From a virus, in IMG/VR virus record IMGVR_UViG_3300028498_000026, positions 1 to 22,846 of that record: DNA of 22,846 nucleotides. One strand, written 5' to 3'. Shown here piece by piece: positions 11,155 through 15,924 of the stretch. The notes under the pieces are model-generated. The model was not told where the DNA came from and searched no databases. It saw only the letters and a program-made list of their open reading frames with translations. The translations under genes were made by a program, and so were the position numbers. The stretch's first letter is position 1; the number at the start of each line of letters is the position of its first letter.

Positions 11155-14016
11155 TTAGCGGCTCCTTTGCGTGGCGTAATTGCGCGAGAAGGCCCGGCTT
11201 GTCTTGCTGTTGGGGTCGCCGAACTGCGCGGCGGTGGCGGCCACGGCCTCCTCGATGATCAGCGCCCGCTCGCCGTTGCTCATGCGCTGCTCGGTCACCT
11301 TGCCGATCTTGGCGCTGGTGTTGTTGACGATGGTGATGGCGCCGCCCTTGCTGTCGCTGGCGCTGCCGTTGCGGGCCAGGTCGCGGATCACGTTGGCCTG
11401 CGCCTGGGGCAGCACCATTTCCTTTTCGTGCAATTGCGTCATCGGGTTGACGCCGGCCGGAATGTCAAAGCCGTCACGGGCAGAGGCCACGCTCAGCGTC
11501 GCGGCTGCCGTGGCGGCCACTGCAAAGCCTTCTGCCAACGCAGTGGCCGCCGCAGCAGCACCCGGCGCCAGCACTGGGCCGACGATGGGGATGGCTGCCG
11601 TCGAGGCAAACGCAGCCAGCCCAGCCATGGCGACCATGGCCTGCGACTGCGCTGCAATGGTGGCCGCGTACCCAGTTGCTGCCGTCTTGTCAAGAAACAG
11701 CTTCTGGATCTGGATCTTGATGAAGCCGGTAATAAAGGCGTCGGCCACGTTAAGCGCGACCGCCTTGAGGCTTTCTTCCAGGCTTTTGCCGCTCAGGATG
11801 GCGGCTGAAATACTCGATGACACGCCATCGGTGATGCTGTCAAACGCATTGGAAAACATGGCAGCGGTGTTGCCCGACACATTTTCCGCGCTGGTTTGGT
11901 AGTTGGCAAACGCCTCAGTGGCGCCATTGAGCCAGTCGGCCTGCTTTTCCTTGATGGCCACCGTGCGGGCGTCGTAGGCGGCGATTTCCTTGGCATACGT
12001 GTCGTTGACGATGGCCAGGTAGGTGTCAAACTGCGTCCGGTCGATCTGGTTGCGGCGCAGGTCGCCTTCCAAGCCTTGGCGCTGCGCGGTCTGCTTGTCC
12101 TCGATAACACTGCGCCCGGCTTGGTTCGCCCGGAATTCATCACCCCGGCCGACGCCAGCGATTTCGCGTGCATTTTGCTTGTTGACCGTTTCAATGTAGG
12201 CCTGCGCGGCCTTGGTCGCGTCCACATAGGATTGCGCGATCTTGGCGTTGGCGGCGACTTCCTGGGTTTTCAGTACCTCGATGTTGGCGACCGAGCTTTC
12301 CCGCACTTTGTCGAGCTTCGCCTGGGCATCGGCAATCTTGCGCAGGTTGTCGATTTTATCCTTGCCCGTCAGCTTTTCCTGGTTCAGGCGGGCCAGTTCT
12401 TTTTGCAGTTCGGCCTCTTGCGCCTGGCTGTTCAGGTTCAGGAACCCAAGCTTGGAGGCGTAATAGTCTTTGTCGCTGATCAGCGTTGCTGAGCGCCGGG
12501 CTTCCATGATCTTTTCTGCGCTGGCGAACGTGGCAATCTGCGCTTCACTGGATTTTCTGATTTCATCCAAGTCGAACGCCAGTTGCGCCTTGGCCTCTTG
12601 CCGGGCGGTGTCCTTGCCTTCCTTGTCCTTTTTGGCAGCGCCGTCGAACGTCAACACCTTGCCGGTTTGCTGACCGATGCTACCGGGGTCACCCAGCCGG
12701 CGCGGGTCGTCAAACGGCCTGTTGGCGATGCGTGCGCGTACCTTGTCGGCCATGCCCGCACCTTGCGACAGCCGCTCGTAGCGGGCATTTGCATCTTTAA
12801 GCGTTTGCTCGCGCTCCTTGATGGCCAGTTCCAGCGCGGCAGTGTTCCGCTTGTAAATATAGTCTGGCCCCACCACAGACGCTGCCGCATTGGCCGCGCC
12901 GCGCACCACGACATCGGCATCGGCAGCAATGACATTCAAGCTGCCTTTGAGCGCCAGCAGCGCCCCTGAAGCGTTGTAGATGCCGTCCACCAGTTCAGCC
13001 ACTGAAATGGCGGCAGAATCAGCAAAGGTTTTGATCCCGGTGTTGCCCGCCAACCCGGTGGATTCTTTGCCAACGCTCAAAAGCTCTTTGACTGAGTCGC
13101 CCAACGCGCCAGTGAACGCCGTCAGCGCCGGCAGCGCCTGCGTGGCCAGCGCTGACGCATACAGGCTCAGCTCGGCGCGCTGCTTGGCTTGCTTGTCGGC
13201 GTAGTCGTCGGCCAGGCGGATCTGTTCTTGCGTGAGGATGACCTGGCGCCCGCCTTCTTGCCCCAACTCTTTCAAAAATGGCAACAGATCGGCGCCGGAC
13301 TTGCCGAACAGCGCCATCGCCACGGCGGTTTTTTGTGCGCCGTCTTGAAACCCCGACAGCGCCTTAGCCACCGTTTCGATTTGGTCGGCAGGCCGGAGCT
13401 TTTTAAAGTCATCCAGGCTCAAACCAAGAGCCGAAATGGCAGCGCCTGCGGCTTTGGAGTCGTCGTCGACCCCGGTCAATCCCTTGGTCAGCTTGGCCGA
13501 TGCGCTGACAATCGTGTCCATGGCCGTGCCGGCAGTCCCAGCCGCAACAGCCAGGCTGGCAATGTTCTCGGCCGTGTCGCCCGTCTTTTCGGCCATGTCC
13601 TGAAAGTCACCCGCCTTTTTGATCAAGGCGTCGAATCCAGCCGCCGCCGCGATCAGGCCCGTCGCGGCAATCGCGCCAAAGGCCAATAGGCCCGTGCGCA
13701 GACGCTGCCCCATGGCTTCGCCCTTGGCGTAGCCTTCAGAGAGTTTTAGCGCTGAATCGGCCGCTTTGAGTTGCGCGTCGGAGGCGCCGCGCAGCGCCAG
13801 CTTGTACAACTCAGTTTCCCGGGTGGTTTTTCCGGTGGTGACCGCCGCAACGCCCAGCTGTTTGACATAGCGGTCAATGGATGCGCTCTGGCTCTTTGTG
13901 GCATCGCCGGCCGCGATGCCCAGCCCTTTGAGGCTGCGCTTGGCGTCGTCAATGCCGGCCTTGAGTTTGGTGGCGTCCGCAGACACCTCAATAACGCCGG
14001 AGCCTATAACGGTCAT
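11155..14016 (-). CDS. Tape measure protein
   Basis: A 953-residue tape measure protein that sets tail length and is ejected ahead of the DNA. The N-terminus (GSGVIEVSADATKLKAGID) is typical of phage tape measures. A hydrophobic segment lies at about 108-128 and a long Ala-rich hydrophobic region at about 810-875. The middle is largely helical and coiled, rich in Lys, Glu, Ala and Gln (for example 480-680). The C-terminal PMTQLHEKEMVLP motif is also usual. By the rule of about 0.15 nm per residue the tail would be near 140 nm, so a siphovirus is expected. The gene starts 15 bases after a terminator-like hairpin and is the longest in the window. Confidence 0.95.
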   Translation of the reverse strand: MTVIGSGVIEVSADATKLKAGIDDAKRSLKGLGIAAGDATKSQSASIDRYVKQLGVAAVTTGKTTRETELYKLALRGASDAQLKAADSALKLSEGYAKGEAMGQRLRTGLLAFGAIAATGLIAAAAGFDALIKKAGDFQDMAEKTGDTAENIASLAVAAGTAGTAMDTIVSASAKLTKGLTGVDDDSKAAGAAISALGLSLDDFKKLRPADQIETVAKALSGFQDGAQKTAVAMALFGKSGADLLPFLKELGQEGGRQVILTQEQIRLADDYADKQAKQRAELSLYASALATQALPALTAFTGALGDSVKELLSVGKESTGLAGNTGIKTFADSAAISVAELVDGIYNASGALLALKGSLNVIAADADVVVRGAANAAASVVGPDYIYKRNTAALELAIKEREQTLKDANARYERLSQGAGMADKVRARIANRPFDDPRRLGDPGSIGQQTGKVLTFDGAAKKDKEGKDTARQEAKAQLAFDLDEIRKSSEAQIATFASAEKIMEARRSATLISDKDYYASKLGFLNLNSQAQEAELQKELARLNQEKLTGKDKIDNLRKIADAQAKLDKVRESSVANIEVLKTQEVAANAKIAQSYVDATKAAQAYIETVNKQNAREIAGVGRGDEFRANQAGRSVIEDKQTAQRQGLEGDLRRNQIDRTQFDTYLAIVNDTYAKEIAAYDARTVAIKEKQADWLNGATEAFANYQTSAENVSGNTAAMFSNAFDSITDGVSSSISAAILSGKSLEESLKAVALNVADAFITGFIKIQIQKLFLDKTAATGYAATIAAQSQAMVAMAGLAAFASTAAIPIVGPVLAPGAAAAATALAEGFAVAATAAATLSVASARDGFDIPAGVNPMTQLHEKEMVLPQAQANVIRDLARNGSASDSKGGAITIVNNTSAKIGKVTEQRMSNGERALIIEEAVAATAAQFGDPNSKTSRAFSRNYATQRSR

Positions 14017-14106: not shown

Positions 14107-14487
14107 TTACGGCGACGGGGTTGATGAACGCCCGTTGCGGGTTTCTTGTTGCGTTTCTGTCGTTTGGTGATTTACCAATTTGCCCGCTTTGTCGAACGTA
14201 AACACTGTAGAGCTTGTCCGAATATCAGCGCCTCCGGCGAATAGCCCGACAACAGGAATGAACGTAGCCCCTTTAACTTGATACTGTGCGAACGCATAGG
14301 TCATGACGCGCGATCCATCCGACGAACTCATCAAAGTCTGCGGCTTGCCGAGTACCTTGATTACGTCTACCTCTGTGGTTTTTCCTGTTTCAAATGCCGT
14401 TAACTGATCTGCTTTTACCTGGCTGCCGGTAGACGCGCACCCCGCTAGTGCCGAAAAAACCACCAAAACCGCAAACATCGTTTTCAT
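14107..14487 (-). CDS. BamE/SmpA-like lipoprotein (phage moron)
   Basis: A 126-residue lipoprotein. The start at 14487 follows AAGGGGA and gives a clean signal peptide, MKTMFAVLVVFSALAGC, with the lipobox LAGC and lipidated Cys17. The mature part holds F-E-T-G-K-T-T-E-x-D-V-I-K-V-L-G-K-P at about 32-49, the hallmark of BamE/SmpA/OmlA-type folds, then beta-strands and a polar Gln/Thr/Arg-rich tail. No +2 Asp is present (Ala18), so outer-membrane sorting is expected. It interrupts the tail operon between the chaperones and the tape measure, 39 bases after the G-T stop, and is followed by two terminators. It has no known part in tail assembly. A role in lysogenic conversion, such as superinfection exclusion or envelope change, is inferred. 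Confidence 0.82.
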   Translation of the reverse strand: MKTMFAVLVVFSALAGCASTGSQVKADQLTAFETGKTTEVDVIKVLGKPQTLMSSSDGSRVMTYAFAQYQVKGATFIPVVGLFAGGADIRTSSTVFTFDKAGKLVNHQTTETQQETRNGRSSTPSP

Positions 14488-14526: not shown

Positions 14527-14841
14527 CTAATTTGCCGACTGCATTTGCGTCAGCGCCGCGTCTTCCATGATTCGAACTTCCTCGAAAACAGTGGCACGGT
14601 CAGCAGGGATAACCCCGCCAAACCGCATCACGACAGGCAGGGCGTTGTAGTCCAGGCCGGTCGCGCCGTTCATGCCCACGCGCCACTGCGTACTCATCGC
14701 AATGAAGCAATTGGCCGCCTGCAGGTTGTCGGGCCACAGCTCGACCGCGTCGCCTTGCGCTTCTTCCAGCGTCAGGCCGAAGTTAGCCGCCTCTGCCGCG
14801 CTTGGCCCTTTCGAGTACAGCGCTACAGCGGCGGCCTTTAG
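14527..14841 (-). CDS. Tail assembly chaperone T domain (G-T frameshift extension, DUF1799-like)
   Basis: From the frameshift site the -1 frame stays open for 104 codons to TAG at 14527-14529. It encodes LKAAAVALYSKGPSAAEAAN at the start, then GLTLEEAQGDAVELWPDN, a cysteine- and tryptophan-containing centre, and an end of MQSAN. The region has no good independent start codon at its beginning, so it should be made only as a fusion to G (about 207 residues in all), as lambda gpGT is. The composition and the E-x-W-P-D-N motif resemble DUF1799-type phage proteins, which occupy this place in related phages. Its role would be to bind tail tube subunits while the G part holds the tape measure. Confidence 0.85.
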   Translation of the reverse strand, partial: LKAAAVALYSKGPSAAEAANFGLTLEEAQGDAVELWPDNLQAANCFIAMSTQWRVGMNGATGLDYNALPVVMRFGGVIPADRATVFEEVRIMEDAALTQMQSAN

Positions 14842-14847
14842 TTTTTT
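14791..14847 (-). promoter_or_regulatory. Programmed -1 frameshift signal A AAA AAC
   Basis: The slippery heptamer A AAA AAC occupies 14847-14841 in the exact zero-frame phasing (GCA AAA AAC), directly before the TAA of gene G. After a five-base spacer, GCCGCC at 14835-14830 can pair with GGCGGC at 14791-14786. One mismatch and two more pairs extend the stem, forming a downstream stimulatory stem. Slippage moves ribosomes into the 104-codon open T frame. Confidence 0.88.
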
Positions 14848-15149
14848 GCTTTGGTCTTCACCAGTTCGGCTTTATAGGTGTCGTACACCGCCAGCGCCGC
14901 GCCCATGTAGTTTTCCAGCAGCAATTCGACCGATGCCTGGTTGAATTCTTCTTCAAATTCCCAGCCGGTCAGCATTTCCATGAAGGCTTCGGCGTCTGTC
15001 TTTTTGGCCAGCCCTTTGCCAAACTCGTCCAGGGCGGTTTTTGTCATGTGCCGGAAGGTGAATTCCATCGGCACGGGCTCGCCACCGGCCACAGGGATCA
15101 ACACTTTCGCCTTGAAGACGGGGTTTGCAATTAACTTGAGTTTTGCCAT
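14838..15149 (-). CDS. Tail assembly chaperone G
   Basis: A 103-residue chaperone matching phage tail assembly chaperones located between tail tube and tape measure genes. It has a beta-rich start (MAKLKLIANPVFKAKVLIPV), then FTFRHMTKTALDEFGK and an acidic helical end with WEFEEEFNQ and LLLENYMGAALAVYDTYK. The start at 15149 (MAKLK) is preferred to an ATG ten codons upstream, which lies inside an inverted repeat. No strong ribosome site precedes it. The last codons carry the slippery site that yields the longer G-T form. The pair is expected to wrap the tape measure and recruit tube subunits. Confidence 0.88.
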   Translation of the reverse strand: MAKLKLIANPVFKAKVLIPVAGGEPVPMEFTFRHMTKTALDEFGKGLAKKTDAEAFMEMLTGWEFEEEFNQASVELLLENYMGAALAVYDTYKAELVKTKAKN

Positions 15150-15236: not shown

Positions 15237-15881
15237 TTAAGAGGCGTAGCGCACTGGCTCGGCCAGCAGCGATAGCGTGACTTCGCAGGCCATGATCTCG
15301 TTCACGGTCAGCGATGGCGTCTTGTTCAGGCTGATGTAGGCGTTGTAGAGGATCACGGCGCCGCTGGGCAGCGTCACGCGCACGGCACGCGGCAGGCGGT
15401 CATCGTTGGCGGCAGATGCCAGGATGTAGCCGGCCAGCGTCGGGTCGTCTGCAACGCTGAAGGTCAGGCCAGCAGCGCTTTTCACGGTCGGAATGCGTTT
15501 TTGCGCGTCGCCTTCGAGCAGCTGGTATTCCAAAAACTGCTGCTCGCCGCCAGAGCTGGAGCTGGACAAAATCTGTGACAGCTGCGTCCAGCCGGAAATC
15601 TTGCGAAACGAGCCTGTGCCGCCGCCAGCCGGGTAGATGCTGGTCAGCGCCGTGTCGTAGCCTTCGAGCGAAAACTGCGTGCCGCTGGGCGTGAGTGCGC
15701 GCACGATCTTGTTGGTCAGGCGCGACCAGGCAGAGGTGATTTCCACGATGTCGCCGGCAACCAGGGTGTTGCTGGCGCTGGCGACAGCGGGGTTTGCATT
15801 GCTCAATGCGGTGATGCTGACCGCGCTGGTGTACGCGCTGGCGATGGCGACAAGCGCGCCGTTGGGCAGGGAAATACTCAT
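15237..15881 (-). CDS. Major tail tube protein (lambda V type)
   Basis: A 214-residue protein with the order and look of a siphophage tail tube subunit. It begins SLPNGALVAIASAYTSAVSI, is beta-rich throughout, and has a GGGTGSFRKISGWTQLSQI loop region near 85-105. A C-terminal strand set ends VNEIMACEVTLSLLAEPVRY. The start at 15881 is preceded by AAAGG at good spacing; an ATG 12 codons upstream would begin inside the terminator-like hairpin and is rejected. It follows the DUF3168 tail terminator and precedes the G/G-T chaperones, the classical order. As an abundant virion protein it stands directly behind a terminator-like hairpin, like the capsid gene. Confidence 0.88.
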   Translation of the reverse strand: MSISLPNGALVAIASAYTSAVSITALSNANPAVASASNTLVAGDIVEITSAWSRLTNKIVRALTPSGTQFSLEGYDTALTSIYPAGGGTGSFRKISGWTQLSQILSSSSSGGEQQFLEYQLLEGDAQKRIPTVKSAAGLTFSVADDPTLAGYILASAANDDRLPRAVRVTLPSGAVILYNAYISLNKTPSLTVNEIMACEVTLSLLAEPVRYAS

Positions 15882-15900
15882 GATTAGCCTTTCAAGACGT

Positions 15901-15924
15901 AAAAAAAACCGACTCAAGGCCGGT
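15901..15924 (-). terminator. Terminator-like hairpin before tail tube gene
   Basis: On the minus strand ACCGGC pairs with GTCGGT (one G-U) around a five-base loop, followed by eight T. It ends 20 bases before the tail tube ATG. A second short GCCC/GGGC stem lies just upstream near 15933-15947. Confidence 0.75.

Follow-up and report, generated by a model that had tools for sequence, protein, structure and literature searches.

A Phage_TAC_4/DUF1799 tail assembly chaperone pair very probably joined by programmed -1 frameshifting in a tailed phage

Introduction

In the virus record of 22,846 bases analysed here (the window), the frame T opens at the end of gene G, in the -1 frame and with no usable start codon of its own. 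How such a frame could be translated is the question raised by this locus. A sequence-only reading had proposed that a programmed -1 frameshift joins G to T in an arrangement like that of lambda.

Identity and neighbourhood of G and T

14838-15149, minus strand: G, tail assembly chaperone, 103 aa, ATG start (PF08748 Phage_TAC_4 and phrog_569)
14527-14841, minus strand: T, -1 frame, 104 codons and TAG, without a usable start of its own (PF08809 DUF1799 and phrog_680)
15237-15917, minus strand: major tail tube protein, upstream of G (PF08813, E=2.5e-54; phrog_584)
11155-14016, minus strand: tape measure protein, downstream of T (phrog_2854, E=1.2e-44; PF09718, E=2.3e-09)

G matches PF08748 Phage_TAC_4 in the Pfam profile search with E=6.2e-27 and a score of 94.7 bits, above the Pfam gathering cut-off of 21.1, and phrog_569 among the PHROG profiles with E=3.1e-32. 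T had been described as DUF1799-like, and the profile search agrees: its residues 21-100 match PF08809 DUF1799 with E=1.9e-25 and 89.3 bits (cut-off 26), and the frame matches phrog_680 with E=1.8e-31. The first half of a single profile, phrog_17368, covers G and its second half T. Because of the profile matches of both G (6e-27, rounded) and T (2e-25), a random open frame is excluded.

The AlphaFold2 model of G is of moderate confidence (pLDDT 80) and has a helix at the C-terminus, residues 84-101. The model of T is confident (pLDDT 93) and has a helix at its start, residues 2-8. Since G ends and T begins in a helix, the helix could run on across the junction, and the models suggest that the C-terminal helix of G may be continued into T in the fusion. 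The best structural neighbours of the G model include 3klu (yqbN) and the HK97 chaperone 2ob9, with weak Z scores of 3-5; 2ob9 is among the top four matches, but at Z 3.2, rmsd 4.6 and 81 aligned residues it is too weak a match for homology to be concluded. The VIA structural matches of the T model all have a Z of 3.5 or less. Foldseek against the PDB gave no match at E 0.001 for the G model and no significant match for the T model, and a PDB sequence search returned nothing useful.

The gene order is tail tube, G/T and tape measure, with one extra ORF between T and the tape measure gene. The wider order of terminase, portal, ClpP-like protease, capsid and head completion genes is consistent with a tailed phage of HK97-like order. 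The extra ORF (14107-14487, minus strand) encodes a small lipoprotein-like product (MKTMFAVLVVFSALAGCAS...) that matches phrog_3135 (unknown) and has distant homologues in unrelated phages. A site resembling a promoter precedes it and hairpins resembling terminators lie at 14088-14036; these features suggest a moron that has inserted into the tail operon. Where the tail region ends, an acyltransferase-3 domain fused to an SGNH domain (PF01757 and PF19040; 475-2481, minus strand) is of an enzyme type that O-acetylates surface polysaccharide, and is a possible lysogenic conversion gene.

The slip site and the start of T

14841-14847, minus strand: slippery heptamer A_AAA_AAC in zero-frame phase, adjoining the TAA of G (read from the sequence; AAAAAAC or GGGAAAC at this place in 39/40 distinct homologous loci)

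The zero frame at the 3' end of G reads gcA AAA AAC TAA, so the heptamer at 14847-14841 is in the zero-frame phase that had been claimed for it. Its placement two codons before the G stop was wrong: TAA follows directly, and AAA and AAC are the last sense codons. In the homologue comparison a conserved Asn closes G. In-phase sites of the form X_XXY_YYZ (Y = A or T) number five in the 6780 codons of the 22 window ORFs, which puts the chance of one at a given place at roughly 7e-4, and the site at 14847-14841 is the only one of the five at a gene end. The first -1 codon after a slip would be CTA at 14841, and the frame ends at TAG, 14527. It is open for exactly 104 codons between these positions, as first read, and its open stretch ahead of the slip site is just 10 codons long.

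The claim that T has no suitable start also stands. ATG, GTG and TTG are all absent from the frame until codon 48, which falls within the DUF1799 match, and translation from there would cut the domain in half; a rare CTG at codon 7 is a conceivable start. This bears on the view that T is a separate gene, read from an internal start or by re-initiation after G. Such a view draws on pAEv1818, AUS531phi and Kpn_F13, where T is annotated as its own ORF, usually truncated, and on Klebsiella phages P85_2 and Re28-1, in which an in-frame GTG precedes the stop codon of G by 22 nt. However, conservation of T sets in at the slip site itself, where the first codon after the slip encodes a Leu that is invariant or nearly so, and divergent relatives retain the slip site. 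A separate T gene is thus very improbable.

Conservation of the slip site and of the frame

We compared 40 distinct loci, defined as sharing less than 90% identity in the junction region. At the place of the heptamer, 26 of them have AAAAAAC, 13 have GGGAAAC and one has AAAAGTC; the loci are related, and these counts are not independent events. Either AAAAAAC or GGGAAAC therefore stands at the identical place in 39/40 loci, and the A-site codon is AAC in all 39 and AAG in none of those. The locus L082, found via G, has AAAAAAC and an intact T.

T lies in the -1 frame in 22 of the 23 annotated records (20 phage and 3 plasmid-borne), the exception having a frame-disrupted G. All 20 inspected phage records show this offset, and 15 have a canonical in-phase heptamer at the end of G; Kpn_F13, VAC4, Amona, Re28-1 and P85_2 have A_AAA_G- or A_AAG-type sequences instead. 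Five loci (L087, L095, L097, L098 and L100) keep the G/T arrangement without the canonical heptamer and carry AAAAGTC, AAAAGTT, CAAAAG-TAA or CAAAAGC at the end of G, which suggests that they may slip through single-tRNA A_AAG or A_AAA_G sites. Two of the three annotated plasmid-borne relatives have both the -1 offset and an in-phase heptamer. In the third, the Paraclostridium plasmid locus L104, the T match is in the other frame relative to the annotated, frame-disrupted G, whose C-terminus continues into the usual -1 frame (FKAGCLSHASA); this points to a probable indel near the junction in that record. In an Acidovorax plasmid prophage (L105, about 1093-1126), T is in the -1 frame, and A_AAA_AAC stands some eight to ten codons ahead of the G stop and not at the end of the gene.

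Two further explanations can be weighed against these data. In a contig of metagenomic or viral origin such as the window, the two frames might represent one fused gene split by a sequencing indel or by pseudogene formation. Independent complete phage genomes have the identical -1 offset together with the slip site, and we consider a split gene, which these homologues contradict, to have almost no chance of being correct. The run of six A would also suit slippage by the RNA polymerase, so that the fusion is made at transcription and not by the ribosome. A run of this length is short for polymerase slippage in bacteria, and 13/40 distinct relatives have GGGAAAC, without a long homopolymer, at the same position; this explanation is likewise extremely improbable. 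A separate T gene, an indel artefact and transcriptional slippage are thus all unlikely, and ribosomal frameshifting from G into T is the reading followed below.

The stem-loop downstream of the heptamer

14785-14836, minus strand: predicted RNA stem-loop, 4-5 nt 3' of the heptamer (fold z -3.4; 5' arm position as in L002, L003 and L082)

The predicted fold has an MFE of -33.9 kcal/mol with z -3.4, and 2/200 shuffles fold equally well. Its stem, GGCCGCC/GGCGGCU, has 7 bp including an outer G-U, with further inner pairs. A five-base spacer and a stem GCCGCC/GGCGGC had been described, and these hold if the outer G-U is left off; the 7-bp stem has a spacer of 4 nt. The closest relatives, L002, L003 and L082, fold alike (z -2.2 to -3.9), and L082 has the same 5' arm start but pairs it with a 3' arm displaced by three bases. 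Covariation among the four closest sequences gave two pairs changed on both sides, a score reached by 126/500 shuffles, so the support for the stem from covariation is weak. A z of -2 or lower is found in 17/40 distinct loci, and many have no clear stem. The predicted stem is likely present in the clade of the window, and it is not a general feature of homologous loci.

Comparison with known systems

The T1-like phages U136B, LL5, Stevie and Solomon carry the same Phage_TAC_4 and DUF1799 families with the same -1 offset as the window, and in U136B the heptamer A_AAA_AAC is confirmed, as in the window. The T of the U136B group is about 39% identical to that of the window and the phage lineage differs; unlike the T1-like pairs, the window has the small ORF between T and the tape measure gene. 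A frameshift is mentioned in the announcements of Stevie (PMC4319613) and Solomon (PMC8407766). A paper search on PF08748, PF08809 and Phage_TAC_4 gave no results.

The locus resembles lambda G/GT in its place between the tail tube and tape measure genes, in a -1 shift close to where G stops and in a startless T. As first read, the families differ: for G and T of the window, Pfam gave no match to a lambda-type chaperone family at E 0.01. Lambda slips on G_GGA_AAG. That heptamer is listed as shifty (PMC5009743).

It had also been expected that normal gene calling would miss T. In several records a truncated T is called from an internal start, and T is absent from the annotation of HK639 and EP23; Escherichia phages U136B and LL5, on the other hand, already have the homologous pair annotated as a joined 'frameshift product' CDS, so the expectation holds in part. 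In the deposited records of HK639 (L084) and EP23 (L090), the -1 frame and the slip site are intact. The mechanism and the Phage_TAC_4/DUF1799 instance of it are already known, and the present locus is a previously unannotated member of the G/GT family.

Proposed mechanism and its implications

Taken together, the phase of the heptamer, the two families, the slip-site conservation, the startless T and the annotated fusion CDSs support the original proposal, and G and T are very probably the tail assembly chaperone pair of a siphophage of HK97-like order, in which a programmed -1 frameshift gives a G-T fusion. Most ribosomes would terminate at TAA and release the 103-aa G protein. From the conserved slip site and frame and the predicted stem we infer that a minority would slip back one base on A_AAA_AAC, with the stem-loop 4-5 nt downstream helping, and continue in the -1 frame. 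The product would be a 207-aa G-T fusion with the junction ...TKAKK-LKAAAVALY.... In a scheme like that of lambda, the tape measure protein would be coated with G, and a few GT molecules would recruit tail tube subunits through T.

A review (PMC5009743) describes A_AAA_AAC as far less prone to shifting in E. coli than A_AAA_AAG, so the efficiency of frameshifting may be low at this site. In an HK97-like tail chaperone cluster, 6-7% frameshifting was reported for two members (PMC3711429). It is conceivable, if rather doubtful, that the near-uniform A-site AAC reflects selection for a low, tuned G:GT ratio, the stem-loop being added in some lineages only.

The G-T fusion of the window phage needs a joined-CDS annotation, which many records of the same family lack, or in which T is truncated. 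The comparative set, which combines two canonical heptamers with a small number of A_AAG or A_AAA_G variants and a stem limited to some lineages, is suited to relating frameshift rate to tail assembly.
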